From an uncultured Acidobacteriota bacterium (GTDB lineage: Bacteria > Acidobacteriota > Thermoanaerobaculia > UBA5066): a stretch of 39,074 nucleotides of DNA. A program made the position numbers and the translations under genes. The notes beneath the pieces are model-generated. The model saw only the letters and a program-made list of their open reading frames with translations, was not told the origin of the DNA and made no database searches. Location of the stretch: positions 1 to 39,074 of the forward strand of contig CALAQS010000129.1 of NCBI GenBank assembly GCA_937888435.1, in the 5' to 3' direction. Shown here in pieces: positions 4,396 through 21,683 of this stretch; positions within the stretch are counted from its first letter, which is position 1, and every line of letters begins with the position of its first letter.

Positions 4396-5963
<1,568 letters not shown>

Positions 5964-5967
<4 letters not shown>

Positions 5968-5993
5968 CACGAGCTCGGGATTTCAGGTCTACT
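5964..5993 (+). promoter_or_regulatory. promoter of the aro-his-trp leader
   Basis: A perfect TTGACA (5964-5969), overlapping the cysS stop codon, is followed after 18 bp by TCTACT (5988-5993). TACTGT at 5990-5995 is an alternative -10. Initiation would fall at about 6000-6003, essentially on the ATG of the leader peptide. Confidence 0.6.
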
Positions 5994-6002
5994 GTCCCGG
6001 TC

Positions 6003-6044
6003 ATGATCTTCATCTCGCGCCACTGGCACGTGCATCACAGCTGA
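6003..6044 (+). CDS. His/Trp leader peptide of the supraoperon attenuator
   Basis: A 13-codon ORF reading MIFISRHWHVHHS. Four of its last seven residues are His and one is Trp, a composition expected of an amino-acid-sensing leader peptide and very unlikely by chance in front of histidine and tryptophan genes. There is no Shine-Dalgarno sequence. The ATG lies nine bases after the candidate -10, so translation would start on a nearly leaderless RNA. The stop codon at 6042-6044 abuts the first arm of the downstream hairpin (6045). The regulatory role is inferred from composition, position and the RNA structures that follow. Confidence 0.7.
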   Translation: MIFISRHWHVHHS

Positions 6045-6086
6045 GCCGGCCGCGCTTCGCGTCGCCGGCCCATCGTGGTCCGGAGG
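6045..6086 (+). promoter_or_regulatory. alternative hairpins and antiterminator arm of the attenuator
   Basis: Three competing pairings are visible. Hairpin A: GCCGGC 6045-6050 with GCCGGC 6064-6069, plus inner CGCG 6051-6054 with CGCG 6058-6061. Hairpin B: CCGGCCCA 6065-6072 with TGGTCCGG 6076-6083, one mismatch. Antiterminator: GGTCCGGAGG 6077-6086 is perfectly complementary to CCTCCGGACC 6121-6130, the 5' half of the terminator. A and B exclude each other, as do B and the antiterminator. This fits a model in which ribosomes stalled at early His codons leave A intact, so the antiterminator forms. A ribosome at the stop codon would melt A, allow B and so permit the terminator. Confidence 0.65.
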
Positions 6087-6117
6087 CGCGCGGGGTTTTC
6101 AGGAAACACTCACACGA

Positions 6118-6149
6118 CCCCCTCCGGACCGGAGGGGGTTTTCGTTTTG
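6118..6149 (+). terminator. rho-independent attenuator terminator with embedded ribosome-binding site
   Basis: Ten-base perfect inverted repeat: CCCCCTCCGG at 6118-6127, one A, then CCGGAGGGGG at 6129-6138, followed directly by TTTTCGTTTT. In practice the apex would open to a larger loop. The 3' arm includes GGAGGGGG, eight bases before the TTG start of aroDE, so hairpin formation would also hide that Shine-Dalgarno sequence. Confidence 0.8.
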
Positions 6150-7694
6150 ACCCTGACCGCGGAAAACACGCTCCTCGTCGCCTCACTAGCCCCGGCTACG
6201 AACGCCGAGGCGCTCGAGGCCGCGAAGGAGGCTTCCTGCCTCCCCCAGGGAGCCGCTGTAGAACTTCGGCTTGACGCAATGTCCGAAGAGCCGGAATTCC
6301 GCGCGCTTCGCGCGTGCTTAGAAGGAAGAACACTCATTGCGACGGTCCGTTCCGCATCCGAAGGCGGGGCCTTTCGGGGCCAGGCAGGAGAGGCGCAGAG
6401 GCTGCTTTCTAAGGCTCTGGATGCCAGGTTTGAATTCGTCGACGTGGAGTTCCGCCGCGACGGCGGGGACGAGGCCGCCCGCGTTCCCCCTTCCAAGAAA
6501 ATTCTCTCTCTCCATGACCCGGAGGGCATCCCCGCCGACATGAGCGCCCTCGTCGCCCGGATGCTCGCGACGCCGGCCCGGTTCGTGAAAGTCGTCGCGA
6601 CGGCGAACGATTCCGGCGATGCCCGCCGCCTCCTCGAGCTCCAGGCCGCGCACCGGGACGGGCGCCTCGCGATCTTCGGCATGGGAGAGGCCGGCATCGC
6701 CACGCGCGCACTCGCACCGTATCTCGGCGCGGCGCTCGCGTATGGCGCCCTTCTTCCCGGGCGCGTGACGGCGCCGGGGCAGCTCCTCGCCCGCGACCTC
6801 GCGGAGATCTACGGCGTGGCCCGGCCGCGAAAGGTGTCCCGGCTCTTCGGACTCCTGGGAGGAGTCGTCTCGCACTCTCTCTCGCCCGCCCTCCACAACG
6901 CGAACTTCGAGGCGCTCGGCCTCGACGCTCTCTACGTGCCGTTTGCGATGCGCATCCTCGGGAGGGAGCTCGAGCCCCTCGTCACCTCGCTCGACGCCCT
7001 CGGCCTCCCTCTCGTCGGCGCGTCCGTGACGATTCCGTTCAAGGAGGAGGCCGCGCTCCTTTCGGGCACGGCCGAGGACGGCGAGAGGGCGGTCAACACG
7101 CTGCTGAGGTCGAGCGGCCCGGGCCAGCCGCTCCTGCTGCGCGCGGAAAACACCGATCGCGCGGCCTTCGAGGCCGTGATCGAAGGTACGGGTGTCGCAC
7201 TCGTTTTGGGTGCGGGCGGTACGGCTCGTGTCGCGGTGGATGTTCTTAGAAGGAGGGGATGGGAGGTTTTCGTCTCGAACCGGACCGAGGAGCGCGGCGA
7301 GGACCTGGCGAGAGAAACTGGCGCGCACGCGCTTTCGAAGAAGTCCGAAGCGGCGTGGCCCGAGGTGAGCGTGATCGTCAATGCGACCCCTCTTGGCCTG
7401 AAAGAGGGCGATCCTCTTCCGTGCGAGCAGAGTCTTCTTCACCCCGGGATGCTCGTCATCGACGCTCCGTACCGCGCCGGCGGGACCGAGCTCGTCAAGG
7501 CGGCGCGCGCCGCCGGCGCGCGCGTCGTGGACGGCCAGACACTGCTCCTCCTCCAGGCCGCGGGCCAGGCGACGCTGTTCACGGGCCGGTGGACGGCTCC
7601 GCGAGATCTTTTGGAGCGCCTCTCGTCGCGTGCGCGGCTGGCCTTCGCCTTTTTCGAAGAGCCTCGTCTTGTACTTCCGGAGATCTCCGCGTGA
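6147..7694 (+). CDS. aroDE: bifunctional 3-dehydroquinate dehydratase (type I) / shikimate dehydrogenase
   Basis: Catalyses two consecutive shikimate-pathway steps: dehydroquinate to dehydroshikimate, then NADPH reduction to shikimate. The N-terminal half (about 20-230) is a type I dehydratase: VELRLDAM, the catalytic His in ILSLHDPEG and the Schiff-base Lys in RFVKVVATA. The C-terminal half (about 235-500) is AroE: VVSHSLSPALHN, the catalytic Lys in VTIPFKEEA, the Asp in ENTDRAAF, a nucleotide-binding LGAGGTARV and SNRT. The TTG at 6147 gives 515 aa and uses the GGAGG inside the attenuator hairpin; codons further upstream would read through the terminator. First structural gene of the supraoperon; its stop overlaps the hisZG start. 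AroDE fusions are known in plants and some bacteria. Confidence 0.92.
   Translation: MTLTAENTLLVASLAPATNAEALEAAKEASCLPQGAAVELRLDAMSEEPEFRALRACLEGRTLIATVRSASEGGAFRGQAGEAQRLLSKALDARFEFVDVEFRRDGGDEAARVPPSKKILSLHDPEGIPADMSALVARMLATPARFVKVVATANDSGDARRLLELQAAHRDGRLAIFGMGEAGIATRALAPYLGAALAYGALLPGRVTAPGQLLARDLAEIYGVARPRKVSRLFGLLGGVVSHSLSPALHNANFEALGLDALYVPFAMRILGRELEPLVTSLDALGLPLVGASVTIPFKEEAALLSGTAEDGERAVNTLLRSSGPGQPLLLRAENTDRAAFEAVIEGTGVALVLGAGGTARVAVDVLRRRGWEVFVSNRTEERGEDLARETGAHALSKKSEAAWPEVSVIVNATPLGLKEGDPLPCEQSLLHPGMLVIDAPYRAGGTELVKAARAAGARVVDGQTLLLLQAAGQATLFTGRWTAPRDLLERLSSRARLAFAFFEEPRLVLPEISA
6486..6507 (-). repeat. dispersed AT-rich repeat, copy 3 (in aroDE)
   Basis: The reverse complement reads GAGAATTTTCTTGGAAGGGG, close to the consensus. 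In frame it encodes PPSKKIL just before the catalytic SLHD. SKKIL-like sequence also occurs naturally here in the family, so the protein alone would not betray the repeat. Shorter partial matches (CTTAGAAGG) occur in the same gene at 6317-6325 and 7245-7253. Confidence 0.6.
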
Positions 7695-9331
7695 AGACAG
7701 ACCGTCCCGATCCGAACCTGCCGCGCGGAGTCCAGGCGTTCCTCTTCGATGCGGCCGAGCGCCGCCGCAAGGCCGAGGATTCCGTCGTTCGGAGGCTCCA
7801 GGAGGCCGGCCTGCGCGAGGTCATCCTGCCCGTCCTCGATTTCGCGGATCCCTATGCGGGCGTGACGGCCGAGGGCGACGAGCGCGTCTACCGGTTCCTC
7901 GACCGGCAGGGAAACACGCTTTCGCTCAGGGCGGACTTCACCCCCATGGCCGCGCGGGTCGTCGCGCCGCGCCTCGGCACGCTCTCGGAGCCCGTGTCCC
8001 TGTTCTACCGGGGCGACGTCGTGCGCGACGAAGAGACCGGGGTGGGGCGCCGCCGCGAGTTCGCGCAGGTCGGGGCTGAACGCTACGGGGACGGGCGCCC
8101 GGAGACGGACGGGGAGATGCTCGCCCTCGCCCTCTCCTGTCTCGGTGACGTTCCGGCGGCGCGCCTGAGGCTGACGCTGGGCTGGGCGGGCCTTCTCGAA
8201 CGGCTGCTTGCCGCCGTCGCACCGGCGCTTGCGCGCGGCGGGGGCTCGGGTCTCGCCGAGGCGGCCGGAGCCGCGCGCGCGCGGCACGTGACGCAGCTCG
8301 AAGCGCTGCTCCGCATCTCGGGCGCGGCCGAAGCGGCCGCCGCCGAGGTCGCACGGGCGCTCCTCGTCGGCTTCGATCCCGACTCGGGACTCTTCCGGCC
8401 GCCGGTGCTCGCGGGCGCCGCCGCGGAGCTCGCGCGAGCCGTCGCGGTGGCGCGAGCCGCCCGACCCGGCCTGCCGGTCGTCGTCGACCTGGCGGACGCG
8501 CCCCAGGCTCCCTACTACACAGGGCTCACCTTCAGCGTCGACGCCGCCGGTTGTGGCGGCACGATCGCCGGAGGCGGCCGGTACGACGGGCTCCTCGCGC
8601 GTTTCGGTGCGGCTGCGCCGGCCCTCGGGTTCTGCATCGGGCTCGAGGCGCTCGGTGCCGCCACGGATGCCGGCGGAGAGGACGGGTTCGCGCGACCGCT
8701 CCGGATCGCGGTGGGCAAGGGCCGACTCCTGCCGCAGGCGCTCGCGGCGCTCCGCGCGGGGGGCGCAGCGTTTGGCGAGCCCGACGGAAGGCGTCTCCTC
8801 GTGGCCTCGACGGACGGCGCGTTCGAGCTGCTGCTGCTCAAGGACGACGACGTGCCGACCTACGTTGCGCACGGAGGAGCCGATCTCGGCATCGTGGGCA
8901 GCGACCGTGTCGCCGAGAGCGGAGAGGACGTCACCTCGCCCGTCGAGCTGCCCTTCGGCACCTGCCGGCTCTCGCTCATCGGGAGGGCGGGCGAAACCTT
9001 CCGTCCGAACGGGCAGCCCGTGCGCGTGGGCACGAAGTACCGCCGCCTCGCCACCCGCTACTTCGACGAGAGGAAAATAGCGCACGAGATCGTCCCGCTC
9101 GCGGGCTCCGTGGAGCTTGCCGCGGCGCTGAAGCTCACGGACGTCGTCGTGGACCTGATCGAGTCGGGATCCACGGTCGCCGCGAACGGCCTCGCCGAGA
9201 TCGAGACGATCCTTCCGAGCTGCGCGACGCTCATCCTCGGGCGCGCCTCACTCGTCGCGCGCCGGGCCGAGATCGCGGAGTTCGTCGAGCGCCTGCGGGC
9301 GAACGTGGGCGCAGGGACCGGAAAACCATGA
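7691..9331 (+). CDS. hisZG: HisZ-HisG fusion: ATP phosphoribosyltransferase with its regulatory subunit
   Basis: First committed step of histidine synthesis, ATP plus PRPP to phosphoribosyl-ATP. Residues about 1-325 are HisZ, a HisRS-like paralogue: motif 2 LFYRGDVVRDEETGVGRRREFAQVG region, YYTGLTFSVDA, GGGRYDGLL and ALGFCIGLEAL. Residues about 338-546 are short-form HisG: LRIAVGKGRLLPQAL, ADLGIVGSDRVAES, VRVGTKYR, and the PRPP loop DLIESGSTVAANGL. Short HisG normally needs HisZ as a separate subunit in a hetero-octamer; here one continuous frame joins them through a short linker (about GAATDAGGEDGFARP). The GTG start overlaps the aroDE stop (GTGA). 546 aa equals the sum of both families. No frameshift is needed to explain it. 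Confidence 0.93.
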   Translation: MKTDRPDPNLPRGVQAFLFDAAERRRKAEDSVVRRLQEAGLREVILPVLDFADPYAGVTAEGDERVYRFLDRQGNTLSLRADFTPMAARVVAPRLGTLSEPVSLFYRGDVVRDEETGVGRRREFAQVGAERYGDGRPETDGEMLALALSCLGDVPAARLRLTLGWAGLLERLLAAVAPALARGGGSGLAEAAGAARARHVTQLEALLRISGAAEAAAAEVARALLVGFDPDSGLFRPPVLAGAAAELARAVAVARAARPGLPVVVDLADAPQAPYYTGLTFSVDAAGCGGTIAGGGRYDGLLARFGAAAPALGFCIGLEALGAATDAGGEDGFARPLRIAVGKGRLLPQALAALRAGGAAFGEPDGRRLLVASTDGAFELLLLKDDDVPTYVAHGGADLGIVGSDRVAESGEDVTSPVELPFGTCRLSLIGRAGETFRPNGQPVRVGTKYRRLATRYFDERKIAHEIVPLAGSVELAAALKLTDVVVDLIESGSTVAANGLAEIETILPSCATLILGRASLVARRAEIAEFVERLRANVGAGTGKP

Positions 9332-10626
9332 TGAAGATCGTGGAGACCTGGACGCGGGCCGGACGCCGGGAGATGGAGGCGTTGCTGAAGAGCCGGCGGG
9401 GCGCCTCTCCTGACTTCGCTGCGCTGAAGCAGGTCCTCCCGGTGGTGGAGGACGTTCTGCGAAGAGGGGAACCGGCGCTGAGGAAATACGTGAAGCGCTT
9501 CGACCTGGACTCTCACCCTTCCAAGAAAATCCTTATTGATCCCCGTCGCGAAAAACTGCCTCGCCTTGACGCGTCGTTCGTCCGTGCATTCCGCCTCGCC
9601 CGCCGCCGCATCGAGGCCTATCACCGCAAGCAGCTCGCGTCCGCTTCCTCCGGCTTCTCGTTCACCGACTCTCTCGGTGTCTCGTTCGTCGAGAAACCCG
9701 TGCCGCTCGGCTCCGTGGGCGTCTACGTGCCGGGAGGTCGTGCGTTCTATCCGTCCTCGCTCCTGATGGGTGTCGTGCCGGCGCGCGTCGCGGGGGTGCC
9801 GCGCGTCGCCATCGCGACGCCGCCGCGCGCGTGGGCGTCGAGCCCTGAACTGCGCTGGGCGGCGCGCGAGCTGGGCGTCGACGAGGTCCTGCTCGCGGGC
9901 GGAGCTCACGGCATCGCGGGACTCGTCTCCGTCTGCGGCGTCGCGAAGATCGTGGGCCCGGGCAACCGCTTCGTCGCGGCGGCGAAGCAGATCGTGTCGG
10001 GCCTCGTGGCCGTGGACATGCCGGCCGGTCCGTCCGAGGTGCTCATCGTCGCCTCCGGCGACGCAGACCCGTCCCTCGTCGCCGCGGACCTACTCGCGCA
10101 GGCCGAGCACGACCCGGACGCCACGTGTCTTCTGCTCACGGACTCGCGGCGTTTCGCGGCCGCCGTTCAAGGTGAAGTCGCGCTGCAAATCGGGACGTTC
10201 GAAGACAACGTTTCTTTGAAGGTGATAAGAGCGGCCCTGCGTAGCCGCGGCCGGATCTTCCTTTTCGAAGAAATCTCTCGAGCCGTCTCCGCCGGCTCGC
10301 AGATCGCCGCCGAGCACGTGCAGGTCATGGGCCGCCGCGCCGAGCGCTTCGCGCCCTCGTTGCTCCCGACCGCTGGCGCCCTCTTCATCGGCTCGTCGAC
10401 GCCGACGGCGCTCGGCGATTACCTCGCGGGCCCGAACCACGTGCTCCCGACGGGGGGCGCGGCGCGCAGCTTCTCGGGCCTCTCCGTGCGCGACTACCTT
10501 CGCTGGGGCCGTTCCGTGAAAGTGACCGAGAACGCCGCGCGCTCTCTCGCGCCGCCGGCGGCGGTTCTCGCTCGATTCGAAGGCCTTGCGGCGCACGCCG
10601 CCGCCCTCGACCGGAGGGCGCCATGA
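9328..10626 (+). CDS. hisD: histidinol dehydrogenase
   Basis: Last two steps of histidine synthesis: NAD-dependent oxidation of histidinol to histidine, with a zinc ion. Family blocks are clear: VGVYVPGGRAFYPSSLLMG (about 130-148), KIVGPGNRFVAAAKQIVSG, AVDMPAGPSEVLI, LLAQAEHDPDATCLLLT with the conserved catalytic Glu and metal-binding His region, and GPNHVLPTGGAARSFSGLSV near residue 370. 432 aa is the usual length. Two ATGs at 9328 and 9331 are both possible; the first overlaps the hisZG stop. The gene contains three repeat copies; the loop at about 63-75 (SHPSKKILIDPRR) and the stretch NVSLKVIRA are encoded by them, without disrupting the active-site blocks. Confidence 0.95.
   Translation: MMKIVETWTRAGRREMEALLKSRRGASPDFAALKQVLPVVEDVLRRGEPALRKYVKRFDLDSHPSKKILIDPRREKLPRLDASFVRAFRLARRRIEAYHRKQLASASSGFSFTDSLGVSFVEKPVPLGSVGVYVPGGRAFYPSSLLMGVVPARVAGVPRVAIATPPRAWASSPELRWAARELGVDEVLLAGGAHGIAGLVSVCGVAKIVGPGNRFVAAAKQIVSGLVAVDMPAGPSEVLIVASGDADPSLVAADLLAQAEHDPDATCLLLTDSRRFAAAVQGEVALQIGTFEDNVSLKVIRAALRSRGRIFLFEEISRAVSAGSQIAAEHVQVMGRRAERFAPSLLPTAGALFIGSSTPTALGDYLAGPNHVLPTGGAARSFSGLSVRDYLRWGRSVKVTENAARSLAPPAAVLARFEGLAAHAAALDRRAP
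9514..9537 (-). repeat. dispersed AT-rich repeat, copy 4 (in hisD)
   Basis: The reverse complement contains AAGGATTTTCTTGGAAGGGT, matching the consensus with an extra T. It encodes HPSKKIL in a surface-loop position of HisD, in the same reading phase as copies 2 and 3. Confidence 0.65.
10211..10229 (+). repeat. dispersed AT-rich repeat, copy 5 (in hisD)
   Basis: TTTCTTTGAAGGTGATAAG; the first 14 bases are identical to the core of copy 1 in cysS. It reads VSLKVIR in frame, the same phase as copy 1. Confidence 0.65.
10257..10279 (-). repeat. dispersed AT-rich repeat, copy 6 (in hisD)
   Basis: The reverse complement reads GAGATTTCTTCGAAAAGG, a diverged copy, inverted relative to copy 5 and about 30 bp from it. 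It encodes LFEEISR. Confidence 0.45.
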
Positions 10627-11690
10627 CAGGTCGGACGGTGCCGGTCCGCGAGGAGATCCGGGCGCTCGAGGCGTATCGGCTCGTTCCCGAGGACGCACCG
10701 CCTCTCCGCGCGAAGCTGGATTTCAACGAGTCGCCTTTCGACGTCCCCGAAGAGATCCGCGCCGAGGTTCTCTCGCGCCTCGCGGCGAAAAGGTGGGGCC
10801 GCTATCCGGAATTCGGAGCACCGTGCGTAAAGCGGGCCATCGCCGACGCGATCGGCCGCCGGCCCGAGGAGATCGTGGTCGGAAACGGCTCGGGAGAGGT
10901 GATCCTCGCCGCCGTCTCCGTGTTCGCGGGCGGAGGGGAACTCGTGCTCGCGACGCCCACGTTCTCGCTCTACGGGCAGATCGCCGCGATCGCGGCCGCG
11001 CGCGTCACGGACGTGCCGCGAACGGGTTCGGATTTCGCGCTGGCCGAAGACGCGTTCCTCGCGGCCTCGGGGCAGCCGGGGGCCGTTCCGCTCGTGTGCT
11101 CGCCGAACAACCCGACCGGCGGCGTCGTCGAGCGGGAGTTCCTGGAGCGGCTGCTCGACGACGCCTGCGTCGTCCTCCTCGATCAGGCGTACGTGGATTT
11201 CGCGGAGGCCGGGGACGATGCGCTGCCGCTCGTCGGCCCGCGCGGGAATCTCGTCGTCTTCCGCACCCTTTCGAAAGCCTACGCGGCGGCGGGCTTTCGA
11301 ATCGGGTACGCGGTCGCGGAGCCCGAGCTCGTCCTCGAGATCGAAAAGGCCATTCTGCCTTTCAGCGTGGACCTCGCGGCCGAGGAGCTGGCCATCGCCG
11401 TTCTCTCCCATCCGGAGATCTCGCGCGAGCACGTGAGGAGGATCGTGGCCGAACGCGAGCGAGTCGCCGCCGCGCTTCGCACTGCCGGCGCCACCGTCGC
11501 GCCGTCCCGTTCGAATTTCCTGTTCGTGCGCCCCCCGGGCGCCGATGCCGCGCGCGTGCGCCGCGGTCTCCTCGATCGGGGCATCCTCGTGCGCGACATG
11601 ACGGCGGCGGCGCCCGGACGCCTGAGGGTGTCGATCGGGTCGCGGGCCGAGAACGACCTTTTCCTCGAGGCATTCCTGGAGGTGATATGA
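10623..11690 (+). CDS. hisC: histidinol-phosphate aminotransferase
   Basis: PLP enzyme converting imidazole-acetol phosphate and glutamate to histidinol phosphate. Fold-type I aminotransferase signatures: KLDFNESPFDVP, NGSGEVILAAV, CSPNNPTGG, the DQAYVDFAE Asp/Tyr region, and the PLP-binding Lys in TLSKAYAAAGFRIGY (about residue 220), then a C-terminal RVSIGS with the substrate-carboxylate Arg. 355 aa is normal. The ATG overlaps the hisD stop (ATGA). In several bacteria HisC also transaminates aromatic keto acids; its place between aro and trp genes makes that possible here, but the sequence does not prove it. Confidence 0.93.
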   Translation: MTGRTVPVREEIRALEAYRLVPEDAPPLRAKLDFNESPFDVPEEIRAEVLSRLAAKRWGRYPEFGAPCVKRAIADAIGRRPEEIVVGNGSGEVILAAVSVFAGGGELVLATPTFSLYGQIAAIAAARVTDVPRTGSDFALAEDAFLAASGQPGAVPLVCSPNNPTGGVVEREFLERLLDDACVVLLDQAYVDFAEAGDDALPLVGPRGNLVVFRTLSKAYAAAGFRIGYAVAEPELVLEIEKAILPFSVDLAAEELAIAVLSHPEISREHVRRIVAERERVAAALRTAGATVAPSRSNFLFVRPPGADAARVRRGLLDRGILVRDMTAAAPGRLRVSIGSRAENDLFLEAFLEVI

Positions 11691-12283
11691 GCCGAATCGG
11701 ATCCGTCGAGCGGAAGACGAAGGAGACATCCATTTCTCTCGCCCTGGCTCTCGACGGCGCCGGGAGGGCGGACGTCGAGACGCCCGTGGGATTTCTCTCG
11801 CACATGCTCGAGACGATCGCGAAGCACGCGCGCGTCGATCTCACCGTGCGGGCGGCCGGGGACGTGCACATCGACGCGCATCACACCGTCGAGGACGTCG
11901 GCCTCGCGTTCGGCGAGGCGCTGGACCAGGCGCTCGGATCGCGGGCCGGGATCGAACGGTTCGGGACGAGCCTCGTCCCTCTCGACGAGGCGCTCGCGCG
12001 TTCCGTCGTAGATCTTTCGGGCCGGCCTTACATCGTCTTCGAGTCGCCGGTCGACAAGGAGCTTCTCCTCGTCACGGTGGACTTTCCGTTCGCCCTCGTC
12101 GAGGAATTCTGGAAGTCCGCGGCGTTTCGCGGCAAGTTCAACCTTCACGTGGACGTCGTCCGGGCGAAGAACGGCCATCACGCGGCCGAGGCGGTCTTCA
12201 AGTCGGCGGCGCGCGCGCTGCGCCAGGCCATGGCGGTCACGGGCACGGAAGTCCCCTCGACGAAAGGAACGCTGACGGCATGA
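11687..12283 (+). CDS. hisB: imidazoleglycerol-phosphate dehydratase
   Basis: Dehydrates imidazole-glycerol phosphate to imidazole-acetol phosphate using two Mn ions. Both metal-binding HHxxE repeats are visible: DAHHTVEDVGLAFGEAL (about 64-80) and NGHHAAEAVFKSAARAL (about 163-179). 198 aa corresponds to the dehydratase alone; the histidinol-phosphatase domain found in enterobacterial HisB is absent. The strong ribosome-binding site GGAGGTGAT lies inside the end of hisC and the ATG overlaps the hisC stop. Confidence 0.95.
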   Translation: MSRIGSVERKTKETSISLALALDGAGRADVETPVGFLSHMLETIAKHARVDLTVRAAGDVHIDAHHTVEDVGLAFGEALDQALGSRAGIERFGTSLVPLDEALARSVVDLSGRPYIVFESPVDKELLLVTVDFPFALVEEFWKSAAFRGKFNLHVDVVRAKNGHHAAEAVFKSAARALRQAMAVTGTEVPSTKGTLTA

Positions 12284-12909
12284 CCACCCCGCCCCGTCCG
12301 CCCGTCACGCTCGTCGACTACGGGGTCGGCAACACGGCCTCGGTGATCCGGGCGTTCCGGCGCCTCGGCGCCGAAGTGGACTTCACGGCCGACCTCGACC
12401 GCGTCGCGTCGGCCCGGCGGCTGGTCCTGCCCGGCGTCGCTGCCTTTCAACCGGCGATGAACCGCCTCCTCGAGACGGGTCTCGAGTCTGCCGTGCGCGC
12501 CGCGGTCAAGCGTGGAGGGCGCCTTCTCGGTCTGTGCCTCGGCTTCCAGCTCCTCTTCGAGGAAAGCGAGGAGCACGGCGTGTGCAGGGGCCTGGGACTC
12601 GTGCCCGGCCGCGTCCGCCCGTTTCCGGCCCGCGTCCGCACGCCCCACGTGGGCTGGAACCAGCTCCTCGCGCGCCGCCCCGACGGGTTTGTCGAGGGAC
12701 TGCCGGACTTGAGCTGGGTCTACTTCGTCCATTCCTTCAGGCCGGAGGGCGTCGAGGCCGCGGACGTTGCCGCTGCCTGCAACCACGGCGGAGAGTTCGC
12801 GGCCATCGTGCAGCGCGAAAACGTCTGGGGCTGCCAGTTCCATCCGGAGAAGTCGTCGGAGAACGGCCGCCTCCTCCTGTCGAATTTTCTAAAGGAGGAC
12901 GCGGCGTGA
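12280..12909 (+). CDS. hisH: imidazole glycerol phosphate synthase, glutamine amidotransferase subunit
   Basis: Hydrolyses glutamine and channels ammonia to the HisF barrel. Class I amidotransferase triad: nucleophile Cys in [13 protein letters not shown] (about residue 87), and His/Glu in [10 protein letters not shown] near the C-terminus. The [11 protein letters not shown] start is typical of HisH. 209 aa is normal. The ATG overlaps the hisB stop. The gene ends in GAATTTTCTAAAGGAGG (12882-12898), which supplies the hisA ribosome-binding site and resembles the dispersed repeat core. Confidence 0.94.
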
Positions 12910-13703
12910 ACGGCCAGCGGCTGGCCCTCTGGCCAGCGATCGACCTCATGGGTGGGCGTGTCGTGCGGCTGCTGAAGGGCAAACGCGAGGACGTGACGTT
13001 TTACGACGAGCCTCCCGCTCAGGCCGCGACGAGATTCGCCGCCGAGGGCGCCGACGGCATCCACGTCGTGGACCTCGACGCGGCGTTCGGGACGGGAAGC
13101 AACGGGAGAGAGATCGAAGAAATTCTTTCTTTTTCGGAGGCATCCGGGGTGGCGGTGCAGGTCGGGGGAGGGCTACGCACGGCCGCCGCCGTCGAGGATT
13201 TCTTAGAAGGGGTGAGTACCGCCCGCGCGGTGGTGGGCAGCTTGCCGTTCCTCGACCGCTCCGCGTTCACCCACCTTCTAAGAAAATCTTCCTCTTCTTC
13301 CAATTTTTCCTCTTCGTCTTTGTCGTCCCGCATCGTCGTCGCGCTGGACTGCAAGGACGGGCGGCCGACAGTGCGCGGGTGGACCGAGGACGCCGGGATG
13401 GGAGATGCCGTTTCCGTGGCCCGCGCGCTCGCGGACCTCGGCGTCTCCGCGCTTCTCGTCACGGACGTCGCGCGCGATGGGGCGATGACGGGTCCGAATG
13501 TCGAGCTTCTGTCCGCCGTGCGTGCCGTGTTTCCGGGCGAGATCCTCGCGTCGGGCGGCATGCGCGGCGAAGAGGACCTCGCTCCCGTGGAACGCGCGCT
13601 CGCGGGTGGTCCCCGCGGCGCCATCTTCGGCCGCGCGCTTCATGCTGGTGCCACGACCGTGGCGCGGCTCCGGGCGGCACGCGACCTCGAGAGGCCTTCA
13701 TGA
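12906..13703 (+). CDS. hisA: ProFAR isomerase
   Basis: Isomerises N'-[(5'-phosphoribosyl)formimino]-AICAR ribonucleotide to PRFAR; a TIM barrel. Signatures: [17 protein letters not shown] with the N-terminal catalytic Asp, [45 protein letters not shown] with the second catalytic Asp, and [13 protein letters not shown]. 265 aa is about 15-20 longer than usual because a Ser-rich insert ([17 protein letters not shown], about residues 124-140) interrupts the segment before VVALD; it is encoded by a repeat copy and its pyrimidine tail. The GTG overlaps the hisH stop, with AAAGGAGG upstream. Active-site motifs are intact, so it is probably functional. Confidence 0.92.
13194..13220 (+). repeat. dispersed AT-rich repeat, copy 7 (in hisA)
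   Basis: GGATTTCTTAGAAGGGGTGA followed by GTACC. In frame it reads EDFLEGVST, a normal HisA segment, written with rare AT-rich codons such as TTA. This suggests the DNA motif itself is conserved. Confidence 0.7.
13272..13320 (-). repeat. dispersed AT-rich repeat, copy 8, with polypyrimidine tail (in hisA)
   Basis: The reverse complement of 13272-13291 is GAAGATTTTCTTAGAAGGTG. It continues as an almost uninterrupted pyrimidine tract to 13320, matching the polypurine arm of copy 1 when reversed. It is inverted relative to copy 7, with about 50 bp between, so the two could pair in RNA. It encodes the Ser-rich HisA insert. Confidence 0.75.
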
Positions 13704-15133
13704 CGGTCGCGGTGCGCGTCATCCCGTGCCTCGACGTGGCGAACGGCCGCGTCGTCAAAGGCGTCTCCTTCGAAAGCCTCCGCGACGCGGGCGATCCGGT
13801 CGAGGCTGCCATACGCTACGAGGCCGAGGGGGCTGACGAGCTGGCGTTCCTCGACATCGCGGCCGCGCACGAGAAGCGCGGGACTCTCGTGGACCTCGCC
13901 TCTCGCGTGGCCGAAGTGCTTTCGATTCCGTTTACCGTGGGAGGAGGCGTGCGGTCGGTGGAGGACGCGGACGCGCTTCTCCGCGCCGGAGCCGACCGCG
14001 TGACCGTGAACACCGCCGCGGTCGAGGATCCCTCCCTGATCACGAGGCTCGCCGAGCAATTCGGGGCGCAGTGCGTCGTCGTCGCGATCGATGGAAAACG
14101 CGTCCGTGACACGGGCGGCCTCGCCGTGATGCGCGTGATGACGCACGGAGGACGCCGTCCGACCGACCGGACGGTGACCGGATGGGCCGCCGCGGCCGCC
14201 GCGGCGGGCGCTGGCGAGATCCTTCTGACGTCCGTCGACGCGGATGGCACGCAGGCCGGCTTCGATCTCGAGATGCTTCGCGCCGTGCGTGCCGCCGTCG
14301 ACATTCCGATCGTGGCTTCGGGCGGCGCGGGCCAACTCGACGATTTCGCGAAGGCGGTCGTCATCGGGGGCGCCGACGCCGTGCTCGCGGCCTCCGTCTT
14401 TCACGACCGCATCTTCACGATTGGCGCTGTCAAGGAGGCGATGCGGCGGGTCGGGCTCGCGATTCGTCCCGCGCCCGCTCGTGTGCGCACGCTTCTGCCT
14501 CGCTACGATGCGAGCGGGCTCGTCCCGGTGGTCATGCGCGACGTGGTGACGGGCAACGTCCTCACCCTCGCCTGGACGAACGCGGAGGCGCTCGCGAAGA
14601 CGCGCGAGACTGGTCTCGCGCACTTCTACAGCCGCTCGCGCAAGGTGCTCTGGAAGAAGGGCGAGACGTCCGGAAACGTCCAGCGCGTCGTCGGGATCTC
14701 CCTCGATTGCGACGACGACACCGTGCTCTACGACGTGCGCCCGTCGGGTCCGGCCTGCCACACGGGCGCGGATTCGTGCTTCTCGCGCGTGGAGACGCTT
14801 GGAGCTCCCGGCGAGGATGCGGGGCCCGCGGACGCGCTCGACCTCACGGCTCTCTTCGCGGTCGTCAGGGCACGGAAGGAGTCGCCGGTTCCCGGGTCGT
14901 ACACGAACAAGCTCCTCGAGGCCGGCGTGTCGCGCATCGCTCAGAAAGTGGGGGAGGAGGCCGTCGAGACGGCGCTCGCGTCGGTGACCGGCGACGCGGG
15001 AGCGCTCGCCGGCGAGGCGGCCGACCTTCTCTACCATCTCGCGGTGCTCCTGACGGCGCGCGGCGTCGCGCCGGGCGACGTCGCCGTGAAGCTCGCCGAG
15101 CGCCGGGGCGCCCTGCGACGAGAGAAGCCGTGA
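13700..15133 (+). CDS. hisF-hisIE: trifunctional HisF-HisI-HisE fusion
   Basis: A single 477-aa frame joining three histidine enzymes. Residues about 1-255 are HisF, the cyclase half of IGP synthase: [16 protein letters not shown] with the catalytic Asp, [32 protein letters not shown] with the second Asp, and [13 protein letters not shown]. Residues about 270-370 are HisI, PR-AMP cyclohydrolase: zinc/Mg ligands in [13 protein letters not shown] and [12 protein letters not shown]. Residues about 385-477 are HisE, PR-ATP pyrophosphatase: [35 protein letters not shown]. HisI and HisE act on the product of HisG; HisF acts three steps later. HisIE fusions are common, but fusion to HisF is unusual. 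Its ATG overlaps the hisA stop. There is no stop between domains; an ATG at 14441 is too close to its GGAGG to be a convincing internal start. Confidence 0.92.
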
Positions 15134-16506
15134 AAGCGCCTGATCACCTCGTCGTCGTCGAGCAGCCGGCCGATCTCACGACACCCGTGGCGCTGATGCG
15201 CGGCCTTCTAGCGGGGGGCGGGCCGTGCTTCCTGCTCGAATCGGTGGAGGGCGGAGATCGCGTGGCGCGGTGGTCGTTTCTCGGCGCCTCGCCGTCGGGC
15301 GAGATTTCCGGTCGGGAGACGGACCCGTTCGCCGCCCTCCGGGCGCTCCCTCGCGACGAGACGGTGACGGACGGCGACGACCTGCCGCCCTTCACGGGCG
15401 GGGCCGTCGGCTATGTGGGCTACGACGCCGTGCGGCGGCTCGAGAGGCTGCCCGACGCGAACCCCGACCCGATCGGACTGCCGGACGCGTGGTTCGGGAT
15501 TTTCGACGCGGTCATCGCCTTTGATCACGTGCGGCACCGCCTTCTCTTCGTCACGCACGCCTCGAATGGCGACCAAGCCGCCGCGCGCGCCCGTCTGAGA
15601 GCGCTCGAGGAGCGGGCGCTCACCCGGAGCGGTGAGACGCGACCCGAGGCGCTCCTTCCTCTTACCTTCGAAGAATCTCTTCCCCGGTCTTCCTTCCTCG
15701 CTGCGGTCGAGCGCGCGAAGGAGCACATCCGCGCGGGCGACGTCTTCCAGGTCGTCCTGTCGCGTCGGTGGTCCGCGCCGTTTTCGGGTGATCCCTTCGC
15801 CGTATATCGCGCCCTGCGCTCCCTCAGCCCGTCGCCGTATCAGTACTATCTGCGCACGCCTCACGGCACGATTTTCGGCGCGTCACCCGAGCGCCTCGTC
15901 CACGTCGCCGCCGGGCCCGTGGAGACGACGGCCGAGACGATCCCGCTCGCCGGGACGCGGCCGCGGGGCGCGACGCGCGAAGAAGACCTCGCCTTCGAAA
16001 GGGAGCTGCTCGCGGACCCGAAGGAGCGCGCCGAGCACGTCATGCTCGTGGACCTCGGGCGGAATGACCTGGGCCGGGTCGCGAAGGCGGGCAGCATTCG
16101 GGTGAGGGATTTCTTCCACGTCGAGCGCTACTCGCACGTCATGCACATCGCCTCGCGCGTGACGGGGGCTCTCGCGCCCGGCAAGGGCGCCGTAGACGCG
16201 CTCACGGCGACGTTTCCCGCGGGCACGCTGACCGGGGCACCGAAAATACGCGCGATGGAGATCATCGAGGATCTCGAGCCGGTGAGGCGCGGCGCCTACG
16301 GTGGCGCCGTGGGCTATCTCGATTTCGCGGGCAACCTCGACGTCGCGATCGCGATTCGCACGGCGGTCGTGGCGAACGGCACGATGCACGTGCAGGCCGG
16401 CGCCGGCATCGTCGCGGACTCGGACCCTGAGGCCGAGGCCACCGAGTGCGAGAACAAGGCGCGCGCCCTGATGCGCGCCGTGGAGGAAGCGGGGACGTAC
16501 CGATGA
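15130..16506 (+). CDS. trpE: anthranilate synthase component I
   Basis: Converts chorismate to anthranilate with ammonia from TrpG. The N-terminal tryptophan-inhibition motif [19 protein letters not shown] (about 36-54) supports TrpE rather than PabB. Catalytic-domain motifs: [80 protein letters not shown], and [21 protein letters not shown] with metal-binding Glu. 458 aa is slightly short but complete. The GTG overlaps the hisF-IE stop, joining the his and trp parts without a gap. The linker before the catalytic core carries a repeat copy. Confidence 0.94.
15663..15695 (-). repeat. dispersed AT-rich repeat, copy 9, extended form (in trpE)
   Basis: A diverged core (ACCTTCGAAGAATCTCTT on the plus strand) continues into CCCCGGTCTTC (15682-15692). 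The same extension follows the copy in the DNA glycosylase gene at 32782-32792. It encodes [11 protein letters not shown] in a variable linker. Confidence 0.65.
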
Positions 16507-17072
16507 TCCTCGTGATCGACAACTACGACTCGTTCACGTACAACCTCGTCCAGATCCTCTCGACGCTCGACGAGGACGTGCGCGTCGTTCGAAACGACGC
16601 GCTGTCCGTCGATGCCGTTTTTGCCGCGAAACCCGACCGTCTCGTCGTGTCCCCGGGGCCGGGCCGGCCCGAGGACGCGGGGATCTCGTGCGAGCTGGTC
16701 CGTCGGAACGAGACCATCCCGCTTCTCGGCGTCTGTCTCGGCCATCAGGCTCTCGGCGCCGTCTTCGGCGGCACGATCTCCCGGGCGCCCGTGCTCATGC
16801 ACGGCAAGACCTCGGAGATCGCGCACGATGGGAGAGGGCTCTTCGATGGTCTCGAGAACCCGTTCACCGCCACGCGTTACCACTCGCTCGTGGTCGAGAA
16901 GGATTCGGTTCCCGGCGTGCTGCGTATCACGGCGACCAGCTCGGACGGGCTCGTGATGGGGCTCGCGCACCGGACGCTCCCGCTCGTGGGGGTCCAGTTC
17001 CATCCCGAGTCGATCCTCACGCCGCAAGGGGAGCGCCTCTTGAAGAATTTCGTCGCCGGGCGGCTCGCATGA
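16503..17072 (+). CDS. trpG: anthranilate synthase component II (glutamine amidotransferase)
   Basis: Supplies ammonia from glutamine to TrpE. Class I amidotransferase: IDNYDSFTYNLVQ at the N-terminus, oxyanion region VVSPGPGRPEDAG, nucleophile Cys in LLGVCLGHQALG (about residue 80), and VGVQFHPESILT with the catalytic His and Glu. 189 aa is typical. Sequence of this type often also serves PabB in folate synthesis; no pabB is present here. The ATG overlaps the trpE stop. Confidence 0.94.
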   Translation: MILVIDNYDSFTYNLVQILSTLDEDVRVVRNDALSVDAVFAAKPDRLVVSPGPGRPEDAGISCELVRRNETIPLLGVCLGHQALGAVFGGTISRAPVLMHGKTSEIAHDGRGLFDGLENPFTATRYHSLVVEKDSVPGVLRITATSSDGLVMGLAHRTLPLVGVQFHPESILTPQGERLLKNFVAGRLA

Positions 17073-18106
17073 CGACGGCCGCCCATCGCGCGCTCCGTGC
17101 CGTGGCGCGCGGGACGCGTCTGACGCGCGAGGACGTGCGGGGCGCCGTATCGGCCCTTCTCGACGAGGAGATTCCGGCGGCGATCGCGGGGGGGCTTCTC
17201 TCCGCGCTGGCCGCCATGGGCGAGACGGTCGAGACCGTGGCCGGCACCGTGGATGCTCTTCGGGCGCGCGCCACGCGGCCTCCGGTGGACCGCGCGCTGG
17301 CCGCCCGCGCGATCGATGTGTGCGGAACCGGAGGCGACGGGCTCGGCACGTTCAACGTTTCGACCGCGGCCGCTTTCGTCGCCGCGGGCGCAGGGGCGCC
17401 GGTCGCGAAGCACGGCAACCGCGCGGTCTCGTCTGCGTGCGGTTCGGCCGACGTTCTCGCGGCGCTCGGGGTCGACATCGAAATGTCTCCCGCCCTCGCC
17501 GCCGAGGCGCTTGCCCGCGCGAACGTCACGTTCTTCTTCGCGCCGCTCTATCACCCGGTGATGAGAAAAGTCGGCCCGCTGCGGCGCGAGCTCGGCCTGC
17601 GCACGGTCTTCAATCTCGCAGGGCCGCTTTCGAATCCCGCCGGCGTCACGCGGCAGATCGTCGGCGTCGATCACCCCGAGCGCGTCCCGGTGATCGCGGG
17701 CGCCCTCGCGGCGCTCGGCGCCGAGCACGCGCTCGTGTTTTCGCACGAGACGGGAGGCGACGAGCTCCTGCCCTTCGGGCGCACGTTCGCGGCCGAGGTG
17801 CGCGGAGGGGACGTCGAGCTCCTCCAGCTCGGCGCCGTCGACTTCGGCCTCGACGAAGGAAGTCCCGGCGCGCTCCAGGGCGGAGATGCCGAAACGAACG
17901 CCGAGATCCTGCGCGCGCTCTTCGGGGGATTCCGGCGCGACGCACGCGACGTGGTTCTCATGAACGCCTCCGCCGCGCTCGTCGTCGCGGGCGTTGCGAC
18001 GGACTTCCGAGAGGGCGTGGCGCGGGCCGAGGCCGCGCTCGAGGAGGGGAAGGCGGCGACGGCTCTCGATGCGCTCATCCGGATCTCCAACGGGGGTTCC
18101 TCGTGA
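17069..18106 (+). CDS. trpD: anthranilate phosphoribosyltransferase
   Basis: Joins anthranilate and PRPP. Family motifs: CGTGGDGLGTFNVST (PRPP and glycine-rich loop, about 87-101), KHGNRAVSSACGSADVLAALG, FFFAPLYHPVM, RTVFNLAGPLSNPA, and HETGGDELLPFG. 345 aa is normal. The ATG overlaps the trpG stop, and its own stop overlaps a GTG that opens an 18-codon ORF before trpCF. Confidence 0.95.
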   Translation: MTTAAHRALRAVARGTRLTREDVRGAVSALLDEEIPAAIAGGLLSALAAMGETVETVAGTVDALRARATRPPVDRALAARAIDVCGTGGDGLGTFNVSTAAAFVAAGAGAPVAKHGNRAVSSACGSADVLAALGVDIEMSPALAAEALARANVTFFFAPLYHPVMRKVGPLRRELGLRTVFNLAGPLSNPAGVTRQIVGVDHPERVPVIAGALAALGAEHALVFSHETGGDELLPFGRTFAAEVRGGDVELLQLGAVDFGLDEGSPGALQGGDAETNAEILRALFGGFRRDARDVVLMNASAALVVAGVATDFREGVARAEAALEEGKAATALDALIRISNGGSS

Positions 18107-18159
18107 AGGACGAAGAATCGGATTTCTTCGAATGGGTAAGAGGGGATGAGAGGGAATGA
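18103..18159 (+). CDS. 18-aa micro-ORF coupled to trpD and trpCF
   Basis: Reads [18 protein letters not shown] from a GTG. The GTG overlaps the trpD stop (GTGA, 18103-18106) and the TGA overlaps the trpCF ATG (ATGA, 18156-18159), exactly the coupling used elsewhere in the operon. It exactly fills what would otherwise be a 49-bp gap, and most of it is a copy of the dispersed repeat. It could be a real acidic micropeptide, or a bridge that lets terminating ribosomes travel from trpD to trpCF after an insertion separated them. It contains one Trp codon. There is no family to compare. Confidence 0.5.
   Translation: MKDEESDFFEWVRGDERE
18121..18142 (+). repeat. dispersed AT-rich repeat, copy 10 (trpD-trpCF spacer)
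   Basis: GATTTCTTCGAATGGGTAAG then AGG. It resembles the reverse complement of the trpE copy, including the GTAAGAGG continuation. It lies between two genes but remains open as a coupled micro-ORF. Confidence 0.55.
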
Positions 18160-19664
18160 GCGGATTAATTCTCGGCGAGATCCTCGCTGCAAAGCGACGC
18201 CGGATCGCGGCGGGCGAGTTCACGGCCAAGACGGGCGCGCGTACACGCGCGGAAGTGGCCGCCGGTGCAGCGGGTCGGCCCGATGCACCGCCCGATGGAG
18301 CCCGCTTCGCCTTTGCTCTGTCCTCCTCTTCGAATTCCCTTTCTAAGCAAAATCCTCCTTTCCCTCTTCTTCTTGCCGAAATAAAGCACCGTTCGCCGAG
18401 CGCGGGCCTGATCCTGCCCGACGCGCCTTCGCGCATCGAATCGGTCGCGCGCGCCTATCGGCGCGGCGGGGCGTCGGCGCTGTCCGTCGTCGTCGAGCGG
18501 GACTTCTTCGGCGGCGATCCCTCCTGGCTGCCGCGTGCGAAAGCGGCGTCGGGCCTGCCGGCCCTGATGAAGGACTTCGTGGTGGACGAGGCCCAGCTGG
18601 ATTTCGCTGCCGCTCTGGGCGCCGATGCCGTGCTCCTCATCGTGGCGGCTCTCGACGACGCGGCCCTCGTGCGGTTGCATGCGGCCGCACGGTCCCGCTC
18701 TCTCGCGGTTCTCGTGGAAGCGCATGACGAGGTCGAGGTCAAGCGGGCGCTCGACGCGGGCGCCGAGATCGTCGGCGTGAATTCGCGCGACCTTAAAACG
18801 TTCGAGGTCGACCTGCCGGGCATGGCCCGCCTCGGCGCGCTTCTGCCGGTGTCCGTCACGCGCGTAGCCGAGAGCGGCATCAGGTCGCGGGGCGACGTCG
18901 AAGCGCTCGCCGCTGCGGGCTACGGCGCGTTCCTGCTGGGAGAAGCTCTTCTCAAGGCGCCCGACCCGGCTGCGATCCTGCGCACGCTGCGCGGCGAGAA
19001 CCCCACGGAGGTCAAGATCTGTGGGATCACGCGCGAGGAAGACGTCGAGACCTGTCTGGAAGAGGGCGTCGACTGGATCGGCCTCGTCTTTGCGGCGCGG
19101 TCTCCGCGGCGGCTGACGCCGGAGGAGGGGAAATTTCTGCGAATGAAAGCGAAGGGGGAGGCCGCCGCGTGGCGAAACGGCGGCGGCGCGGAGCGGGCCG
19201 CAGCGGGCAGCATGAAAGGTGTCGTGGCGGTCTTCGCCGAGGACGCGTCGGAGGAAGACGTCGAACGCGTCGCCACGTTTGTCCGCCCGGACGTGATTCA
19301 GATGCCGAATCCCCCTCCTCCCCTTCAGAAGAAATTCTCTTCGGTCCTTTCTTTCTGGAACACCATCCGCGTCGGCCGTGACGACCTAGCCGGTGCGCGT
19401 GCCGGCGACGCCCTTCACTTCGACACGTCCGTTGCCGGAGCGAGCGGCGGCACGGGCAGGACGTTCGACTGGAGCCTGCTGGACGGGATCGATCGCTCCC
19501 GTCCCGTGGTGCTCGCGGGCGGGCTGAAACCCGAGAACGTCGCTTTCGCCGTGAGAAAGGTGAGGCCGGACATCGTGGACGCCTCTTCGGGAGTGGAAGT
19601 TGCGCCGGGAATCAAGGACCCGGCGAAAATCGCGGCGTTCGTGAGGGAGGTGCGACGTGCCTGA
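18156..19664 (+). CDS. trpCF: bifunctional indole-3-glycerol-phosphate synthase / phosphoribosylanthranilate isomerase
   Basis: Two TIM barrels in one 502-aa chain, as in E. coli TrpC. IGPS part (about 1-280): [11 protein letters not shown] with the catalytic Lys, [52 protein letters not shown] and [11 protein letters not shown]. TrpF part (about 284-502): [13 protein letters not shown] with the catalytic Cys, [42 protein letters not shown] with the catalytic Asp replaced by context not fully assignable by eye, and [15 protein letters not shown]. Two repeat-encoded low-complexity stretches, [14 protein letters not shown] near residue 60 and [11 protein letters not shown] near residue 390, extend loops. 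TrpF acts before TrpC in the pathway. Confidence 0.93.
18337..18375 (-). repeat. dispersed AT-rich repeat, copy 11, with polypyrimidine tail (in trpCF)
   Basis: The reverse complement contains GGAGGATTTTGCTTAGAAAG. It is followed on the plus strand by CCTCCTTTCCCTCTTCTTCT, the same core-plus-pyrimidine-tail layout as copy 8. It encodes the insert before the [13 protein letters not shown] motif. It is inverted relative to copy 10. Confidence 0.65.
19318..19350 (-). repeat. dispersed AT-rich repeat, copy 12 (in trpF part)
   Basis: The plus strand reads CCCTTCAGAAGAAATTCTCT followed by TCGGTCC, similar to the trpE copy (CTTCGAAGAATCTCTT then CCCCGGTC). It encodes [10 protein letters not shown]. 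Confidence 0.5.
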
Positions 19665-20877
19665 GGCAACCGGAACCCGTTTCCGTCCGCCGGAGGCCGA
19701 CGCGCAGGGCCGCTTCGGCGCGTTCGGCGGGCGGTTCGTGCCGGAGACGCTCATGGCGCCGCTCGAGGAGCTTTCACGCGCGTACAAGGACGCGCGGCGC
19801 GATCCCGCGTTCCGGCGCGAGCTGGACGACCTCCTGAAGAACTACGCCGGCCGCCCGACGCCGCTCACGTATGCGAAGCGCCTCTCGGAGAGCCTCGGCG
19901 GCGCGCGGATCTTTCTCAAACGCGAGGATCTCCTCCACACGGGCGCTCACAAGATCAACAACGCCCTGGGCCAGGCCCTCCTCACGGTGCGGATGGGCAA
20001 GACGCGCGTCATCGCGGAAACCGGCGCCGGCCAGCACGGCGTCGCGGCGGCCACCGCGTGCGCGCTCCTCGGGCTCTCGTGTGTCGTCTACATGGGGGCG
20101 GTCGACGTGGAGCGTCAGGCGCTGAACGTGTACCGGATGAAGCTTCTCGGCGCGACGGTCGTGCCCGTGATGGGCGGCACGCGCACGCTGAAGGACGCGA
20201 TCAACGAGGCGATGCGCGACTGGGTCGCCTCGACGGCGACGACGCACTACATTCTTGGATCGGTCCTCGGGCCGCATCCGTTCCCGACGATGGTCCGCGA
20301 CTTTCAGTCGGTCATCGGGCGCGAGGCCCTCGTTCAGAGCCGCAGGACTCTCGGAAGGCTGCCGGACGTCCTCGTCGCATGCGTGGGCGGCGGCTCGAAC
20401 GCGATCGGCCTCTTCCGGGAGTTCCTTCCGTTCCGGGAGGTCGAGATGGTGGGGGTCGAAGCCGGAGGGCGGAGCCTGGCGCCCGGCGAGCACGCCGCGC
20501 GCTTCGGCCAGGGCTCGATCGGCGTCCTCCACGGCACGCGCACGCTCATCCTGCAGGACGCGGACGGGCAGGTGCTCCCGACGCATTCCATTTCCGCCGG
20601 CCTCGACTATCCGGCGGTCGGACCCGAGCACGCGCGCCTCGCCGAGCTCGGGCGGACGCGGTACGTCTCCGTCAGTGACGAGGCGGCCCTCGCGGCCTTC
20701 CATCGCCTCGCCGAGGCCGAAGGCATCATCCCGGCCCTCGAGACGGCGCACGCCGTCGCCTGGGCGATCGCAGAGGCGCCTCGCCGGCCGAAGAGCGCGG
20801 CGCTCGTCGTGAATCTCTCCGGCCGCGGAGACAAGGACGTCGTCTCGGTGGCACGGCGCGAGGGCGTCACGCTGTGA
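19657..20877 (+). CDS. trpB: tryptophan synthase beta chain
   Basis: PLP enzyme condensing indole with serine. Signatures: [15 protein letters not shown], the PLP Lys in [34 protein letters not shown] with the catalytic Glu, phosphate-binding [12 protein letters not shown], and VGVEAGG. 406 aa is normal. The GTG at 19657 follows GGGAGG and overlaps trpCF by 8 nt, the one junction in the trp block that is not a 4-nt overlap. It forms the alpha2-beta2 complex with TrpA. Confidence 0.95.
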
Positions 20878-21683
20878 GACGCATCGGGCGGGCCTTCGCG
20901 GTGGCGAAGGTCTCGGGGCGCGCGGCGCTCGTCGTCTTCGTGGAGGCCGGCGACCCGGACCTCGCGACGACCCGGCGTCTCCTGCCGGCGCTGGCCGAAT
21001 CCGGGGCCGACGTGCTCGAGCTGGGAATTCCCTTCAGCGACCCTCTCGCCGACGGGCCCGTCATCCAGCGCGCGAGCGAGCGCGCGCTCGCGTCGGGGAC
21101 GACGCTTGCGGCGGCCCTCGCTCTGCTCGCGGAGCTGCGCGCCACGGGCTTCGCCGCGCCCGTCGTGGTTTTCAGCTACGCGAACCCGATCCTCGCGATG
21201 GGCGAGGCCGAGTTCGCACAGCGCGCGGCCGAGGCAGGCGCGGACGGTGTGCTCGTCACCGACCTCCCGCCGGAGGAAGGCCGCGGATTCGCGTCGATCC
21301 TGAAGAGCGCGAAGCTCGATCCCGTGTACCTCGTCGCGCCTACGTCGCCCGACGAGCGCATCCGCCGGGCGGGCTCTTTGTCACGCGGATTCCTCTATGT
21401 CGTGTCGCGCGCGGGCATCACGGGGACCCGCGCGGAGCTTCCGGAAGGGCTCTCGGCGCTCGTCGGCCGCGTCCGGGAGAACGTGCCGCGCCTCCCGGTC
21501 GCCGTCGGCTTCGGAGTCTCGACGTCGACGCAGGTGCGCGCGGTGGCGGCCATGGCGGATGGAGTCGTGGTGGGAAGCGCGGTCGTGACCGCGATGGAAG
21601 AGGCCGTCAAGGATGGCCGGGATCCCGTAGAAGCAGGCGCCGACCTCGTACGCGCGCTCGCGGCCGCGACGACGAAGGGCTGA
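20874..21683 (+). CDS. trpA: tryptophan synthase alpha chain
   Basis: Cleaves indole-3-glycerol phosphate and passes indole to TrpB. TIM barrel with the catalytic Glu in [16 protein letters not shown] and the catalytic Asp in the same block. [33 protein letters not shown] and VAVGFGVST complete the family pattern. 269 aa is normal. The first strand reads FVEAGDPD where most relatives have a T-A-G sequence, a minor deviation. The GTG overlaps the trpB stop. Confidence 0.94.

Follow-up and report, generated by a model that had tools for sequence, protein, structure and literature searches.

How might a single short leader peptide control an operon that serves two unrelated amino-acid pathways? 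The question arises from a window of 39,074 nucleotides (the whole stretch of DNA analyzed here) from an uncultured acidobacterium, in which 14 tightly packed, mostly overlapping genes for shikimate, histidine, and tryptophan synthesis lie downstream of a His-rich open reading frame. An initial annotation had proposed that this one leader could sense a shortage of either amino acid. Based on the sequence comparisons and folding predictions described below, we consider it highly probable that the locus carries a ribosome-mediated transcription attenuator that responds to two amino acids from unrelated pathways.

The operon, its leader peptide, and the promoter

The operon comprises aroDE, eight or so His-synthesis enzymes in seven reading frames, and Trp genes in six, all on the forward strand. 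Its first gene, aroDE (6147–7694; PF01487, PF08501; start codon uncertain), encodes a 3-dehydroquinate dehydratase–shikimate dehydrogenase fusion. The his segment follows with a hisZ-hisG fusion (7691–9331; PF13393, PF01634), hisD (9328–10626; PF00815), hisC (10623–11690; PF00155), hisB for imidazoleglycerol-phosphate dehydratase (11687–12283; PF00475), hisH (12280–12909; PF00117, assigned by its place within the his cluster), hisA (12921–13703; PF00977), and a hisF-hisIE fusion (13700–15133; PF00977, PF01502, PF01503). The trp segment consists of trpE (15130–16506; PF00425, PF04715), trpG (16503–17072; PF00117), trpD (17069–18106; PF00591, PF02885), a trpC-trpF fusion (18156–19664; PF00218, PF00697), trpB (19657–20877; PF00291), and trpA (20874–21683; PF00290). 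The Pfam assignments thus bear out the earlier claim that both pathways lie downstream of the leader, with his and trp genes in one mostly overlapping run. Because trpE overlaps hisFIE by 4 nt, there is no room at that junction for a separate trp promoter or attenuator. The genome that carries the operon has no match to the TrpR and TRAP families. Four gene fusions occur in this one operon, namely AroD-AroE and HisZ-HisG (6147–9331), HisF-HisIE (13700–15133), and TrpC-TrpF (18156–19664).

The leader open reading frame (6003–6044, forward strand) encodes the 13 residues MIFISRHWHVHHS by exact translation, which confirms the H-W-H-V-H-H run and the Trp codon between His codons described in the initial annotation. 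The regulatory codons CAC TGG CAC GTG CAT CAC (His-Trp-His-Val-His-His) occupy positions 6021–6038 on the forward strand and include all four His codons and the sole Trp codon (TGG, 6024–6026). Given the residue frequencies of the operon itself (W 0.6%, H 1.6%), the chance probability of at least four His residues in 12 codons is approximately 3e-5, and that of at least one Trp residue is approximately 0.07. In the window, therefore, the His run alone exceeds chance and the single Trp codon does not, such that the case for Trp rests on conservation among relatives.

A sigma-70 promoter is predicted immediately upstream (TTGACA, 18 nt, TCTACT; 5964–5993, forward strand), where it overlaps the cysS stop codon. 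It was located with a scan anchored on TTGAC, as the standard promoter scan requires an A at the second position of the -10 box and misses TCTACT. The same layout of TTGAC(A), 17 or 18 nt, and a -10 box precedes the leader in most relatives of the class. Because the leader ATG lies only 9 nt past the -10 box, the attenuator mRNA probably has no 5′ untranslated region or a very short one, with a transcription start that we infer to be a few nucleotides 5′ of the ATG. In most families, the leader ATG is 7–11 nt after the -10 box (about 45 nt in family f9), and their attenuator mRNAs likewise seem leaderless.

Leaders in relatives

AroDE served to find the same locus, first in 61 relatives and subsequently across 149 genomes of the class (Thermoanaerobaculia-type Acidobacteriota), most of which are MAGs, and the surrounding regions were annotated. 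Leaders were called from promoter position, with residues not considered. Automatic calls were unusable for f12 (false ORFs in L047 and L107), for some of f13, f15, and f16, and for all of f6. The leaders of f12 and f13 g45 were therefore read by eye or taken from a relaxed call, and f15 is represented by one genus only. One locus with a wrong terminator pick (L038) was excluded from the genus-level, between-lineage complementarity, and ribosome-position tests. No such leader was seen with AroDE homologues from Planctomycetota and further phyla, which lack the aroDE-his-trp operon.

Trp is present in the leaders of all seven genera of the window's own family, with one to three Trp codons each (HWHVHH, WHWHH, and WHWHWHH types; cores RHWHVHH, RHWHAHH, LWHWHH, RWHWHH, SWHWHH, and SWHWHWHH). 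Leaders with both Trp and His occur in eight other families, and where other families have aroDE-his-trp, most of their genera have Trp in the leader. Upstream of this operon, we observed WWGFVHHH in f7; WWAHGHG, HWHHWTH, and EWWSSVHHW in f9; HWYWFH, HRHSTWAW, and RHHHHWHW in f11; WWHGVHHH in f13; CWRSSAHHH in f14; and WAWRTHHHH in f18. The f12 leader, read by eye, is AAWWRGVHHHGNR, and f17 has HWWWHGHAH, with no downstream genes seen. The conservation of Trp that the initial annotation had proposed as a check is thus found, and no complete operon keeps the His codons while losing Trp. Leaders with His and without Trp do exist. Two are from f11 g30 (TRHHHHGPPRR and TRHHHHVPPRR), where the his segment of genome G045 is decaying, with a hisG remnant plus hisD before trpEG, and the contig of G138 ends. 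The third is from f18 g65 (VVVHHHPVI), whose contig ends before trp could appear.

Across 29 genera, TGG is in frame in 55 of 63 occurrences and CAY in 74 of 86 (p = 9e-19 and 6e-24, both computed without correction for the tree). This in-frame bias sets selection on codons apart from constraints on nucleotides or base pairing, a distinction that bears on whether the attenuator responds to histidine only. Under such a reading, the Trp codon would be there by chance or for the sake of RNA pairing, with the trp genes carried along or controlled by enzyme feedback only. In its favor, the window has one Trp codon against four His codons, CTGGCAC does not vary across the family alignment, and the ribosome-free fold pairs the antiterminator arm with some of the codon region. 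However, Trp copies rise in frame to two and three in sister genera, and the Trp codons of other families reside in unrelated nucleotide contexts. We therefore judge a histidine-only attenuator to be unlikely. The initial annotation had also argued that one Trp codon would give weaker sensitivity to Trp, which is plausible, and relatives with two or three such codons suggest that Trp codon number in these leaders is tuned.

Some leaders have Tyr or Phe codons amid Trp, including GHWYWFH, CWHWYW, CWYWYW, and YYGWWHY (L046, L050, and L124 of f11 g25; L045 of f2; L128 of f8). These read as if they might respond to other aromatic amino acids from the aroDE trunk.

Predicted RNA structures and comparison with known attenuators

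Four RNA elements on the forward strand are predicted 3′ of the regulatory codons. Hairpin P (6042–6072) begins at the stop codon, directly 3′ of the codons, and appears in constrained folding with the ribosome stalled upstream on Trp or His. The alternative hairpin Q (6058–6090; 6058–6068 paired with 6080–6090) appears with the ribosome at the stop codon, and constrained folding of the window has Q sequestering the antiterminator arm. That 5′ arm, GGTCCGGAGG (6077–6086), can form 10 bp with 6121–6130 as judged by complementarity and folding. Finally, an intrinsic terminator (6116–6150) with an 11-bp stem (6116–6126/6130–6140) and a T-rich tail sits between the leader and aroDE, as it does in the large majority of relatives. 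Rfam gave nothing at the gathering threshold in the whole window, and its His and Trp leader families were absent from matches up to E = 10 in positions 5950–6200.

These elements suggest the following mechanism. RNA polymerase would start a few nucleotides 5′ of the leader ATG, and a ribosome would translate MIFISRHWHVHHS. If charged tRNA-His or tRNA-Trp were scarce, the ribosome would stall at a codon within 6021–6038, hairpin P (6042–6072) could form, and the arm at 6077–6086 would remain free to pair with 6121–6130. This antiterminator would allow transcription into aroDE-his-trp. A ribosome that reached the stop codon would instead let hairpin Q (6058–6090) replace P and capture the antiterminator arm. 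By this OR logic, a shortage of either amino acid would raise all three pathway segments together. The model draws on the open reading frame, gene order, terminator, complementary arms, conservation, codon-operon association, and position-dependent folding, each obtained from sequence or computation; from them we infer translation of the open reading frame, stalling, where transcription starts, and what the regulatory effect is in the cell.

Two sets of computations address the proposed switch. First, the antiterminator arm fits the terminator of its own lineage better than those of other lineages, to a degree reached by 0 of 5,000 permutations with between-lineage swaps. Against dinucleotide shuffles, the complementarity is at p ≤ 0.05 in 21 of 52 leaders. 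Second, the RNA was folded in silico as far as the antiterminator partner extends, with a 13-nt block starting at the A-site. The predicted antiterminator probability was 0.67 for a ribosome positioned at a Trp or His codon versus 0.41 at the stop codon, and Trp stalls and His stalls were equivalent in outcome. Shuffled spacers gave a gap of 0.04 (SD 0.025), with 0 of 60 sets reaching 0.26. The gap exceeds 0.1 in 22 of 28 genera (8 expected), and about a quarter of leaders have no stall-versus-stop gap. The switch predicted for the window leader itself is modest (0.66 versus 0.47). In the full-length equilibrium fold of the window, the terminator wins whatever the ribosome state, and the switch must therefore be kinetic and co-transcriptional, as in known attenuators.

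We also considered that there is no attenuator at all, with the open reading frame a chance His-rich stretch and the hairpin a terminator for cysS. The hairpin does have a T tail, and the cysS stop codon is approximately 150 nt upstream of it. However, the predicted promoter stands between cysS and the hairpin, and the leader is kept in f7, f9, and f11, where the upstream gene is not cysS. Along with the frame bias and the position-dependent folding, these observations make a cysS terminator extremely improbable.

The locus combines four features of a ribosome-mediated transcription attenuator: an open reading frame with regulatory codons, an intrinsic terminator, an antiterminator that excludes it, and, in silico, a dependence on ribosome position. 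With hisL of Escherichia coli and Salmonella, it shares a short leader peptide with a His run and mutually exclusive antiterminator and terminator structures, there located 5′ of the his operon. The hisL peptide, as described, has seven consecutive His residues and no Trp. Unlike hisL-like leaders, whose regulatory codons are for His alone, the leaders of this family conserve Trp in frame; the operon in the window also adds aroDE and all trp genes, and there is no sequence or Rfam match. Leaders that respond to several amino acids precede ilvGMEDA (Ile, Val, and Leu) and thrABC (Thr and Ile), where each set of amino acids is the output of a single branched pathway. OR logic in a leader sensitive to several amino acids is common to these systems and our candidate, but His and Trp derive from separate pathways that have only PRPP in common among their substrates.

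In the trpL attenuators of E. coli, of Corynebacterium and Streptomyces (PMC1262725), and of Sinorhizobium meliloti, whose trpL is leaderless (PMC7298713), Trp is the regulatory amino acid of the trp operon. The candidate resembles them in having UGG codons in tandem or nearby, close to the stop codon, and in its antiterminator/terminator switch. Like that of S. meliloti, its mRNA seems to begin at or beside the leader ATG. In contrast to trpL, Trp in the window is interleaved with His, and the operon spans both pathways. Ribosome-mediated attenuation and leaders that combine amino acids from a single branched pathway have long been known. What appears new is the joining of His and Trp, as we found no such leader described in the literature searched, a search that most subscription journals fell outside of.

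Codon content and operon content across the class

If leaders sense the pathways they precede, their codons should differ with operon content. Among genera with his+trp operons, 18 of 20 have at least one Trp and at least two His codons, counting some whose contig ends before trp could be seen. Where operons have trp without his, Trp is present in 11 of 11 genera and at least two His codons in only 2 of 11 (Fisher p = 3e-6). Separate his operons have His in 7 of 7 genera and one Trp in 2 of 7 (p = 0.005 for Trp, his+trp versus his alone). The initial annotation had suggested a comparison with relatives that have separate his and trp operons. This comparison gave trp leaders that keep Trp with mostly zero or one His, and his leaders that are His runs with zero or one Trp. 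In f8, for example, trp leaders have LWWW, HWWW, and YYGWWHY, and his leaders have HHHHLHH, HHHRHHH, HHHHHH, and HHHHH; f6 g32 has HHHHHHHGH. Leaders of f8 g22 (L139 and L149) are mixed, in that those of the separate trp and his operons each contain codons for the other amino acid (SHWWWHGRR and RQHHHLAWHHRP), which perhaps reflects cross-pathway sensing without a shared operon.

The sister families f2 and f3, from the same order, have an aroDE-trp operon and leaders with Trp or Trp/Tyr and without His (CWYWYWSDTR, NWRWREATR, SWWRLEKRR, and CWREGNR). HisG and/or HisD had no match in their whole genomes (92–97% complete), nor did HisG in the nine f15 genomes searched, f11 g21, or single f14 genomes. 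Within f14 g47, a HisG-less genome has CWRGRAQHRLS, versus CWRRSGHHHAVS, RWRRSGHHHVVS, and CWWRRAHIHAG in HisG-bearing relatives. Leaders in lineages without his genes thus keep Trp and have little or no His, which further opposes the histidine-only reading. Together with the conservation of Trp, the comparison with separate operons supports the proposal that a single leader may sense a shortage of His or Trp.

The AroDE tree requires seven to eight changes of operon state, at least five of them forced by well-supported branches, and cannot tell gain from loss. In phylogenetically independent pairs, His codons follow his genes in approximately 3 of 5 and oppose them in none (p about 0.25, with too few pairs for significance). 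Because such pairs are few, the genus-level counts overstate formal significance, although the direction is consistent. Relatives that appear to have lost his genes have largely dropped His codons and kept Trp, and codon content tracks operon content.

The same tree leaves room for an ancestral Trp or aromatic attenuator on aroDE-trp, with His codons arriving along with the his genes and the Trp codon of the window's family now vestigial. The Trp-only and Trp/Tyr leaders before aroDE-trp in f2, f3, and f8, as well as the number of operon-state changes of ambiguous direction, agree with this scenario. Yet all genera of the family keep Trp, most with two or three codons, which is unlike decay, and we regard a vestigial Trp codon as very unlikely.

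Beyond the dual-sensing attenuator of the window, we lean slightly toward a broader reading: an attenuator, programmable through its codons, that operates throughout the class and links two unrelated amino-acid pathways to each other and to the shared aromatic trunk. One operon would be switched on when His or Trp runs short (or, in some lineages, Tyr or Phe, as with the leaders GHWYWFH and CWYWYW), and lineages would rewrite the codons as genes enter or leave. If so, joint control of His and Trp synthesis would have a physical basis in one 13-residue peptide read by two tRNAs, and a function could be assigned to attenuators in Acidobacteriota. The class also represents a natural experiment in which his genes are repeatedly absent or lost and sensor codons differ accordingly, which allows a direct test of whether regulatory codons follow operon content as a rule.

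HisG (and HisD where tested) had no match in L045, L039, L040, L042, G014–G018, f15, G074, G078, and f11 g21, mostly in genomes more than 90% complete. This distribution suggests that His synthesis was lost more than once within the class, leaving several lineages as His auxotrophs. In f11 g21 (L044, L076, L097, and L106), whose genomes lack a HisG match, a lone hisD-like gene resides between aroDE and trpE.
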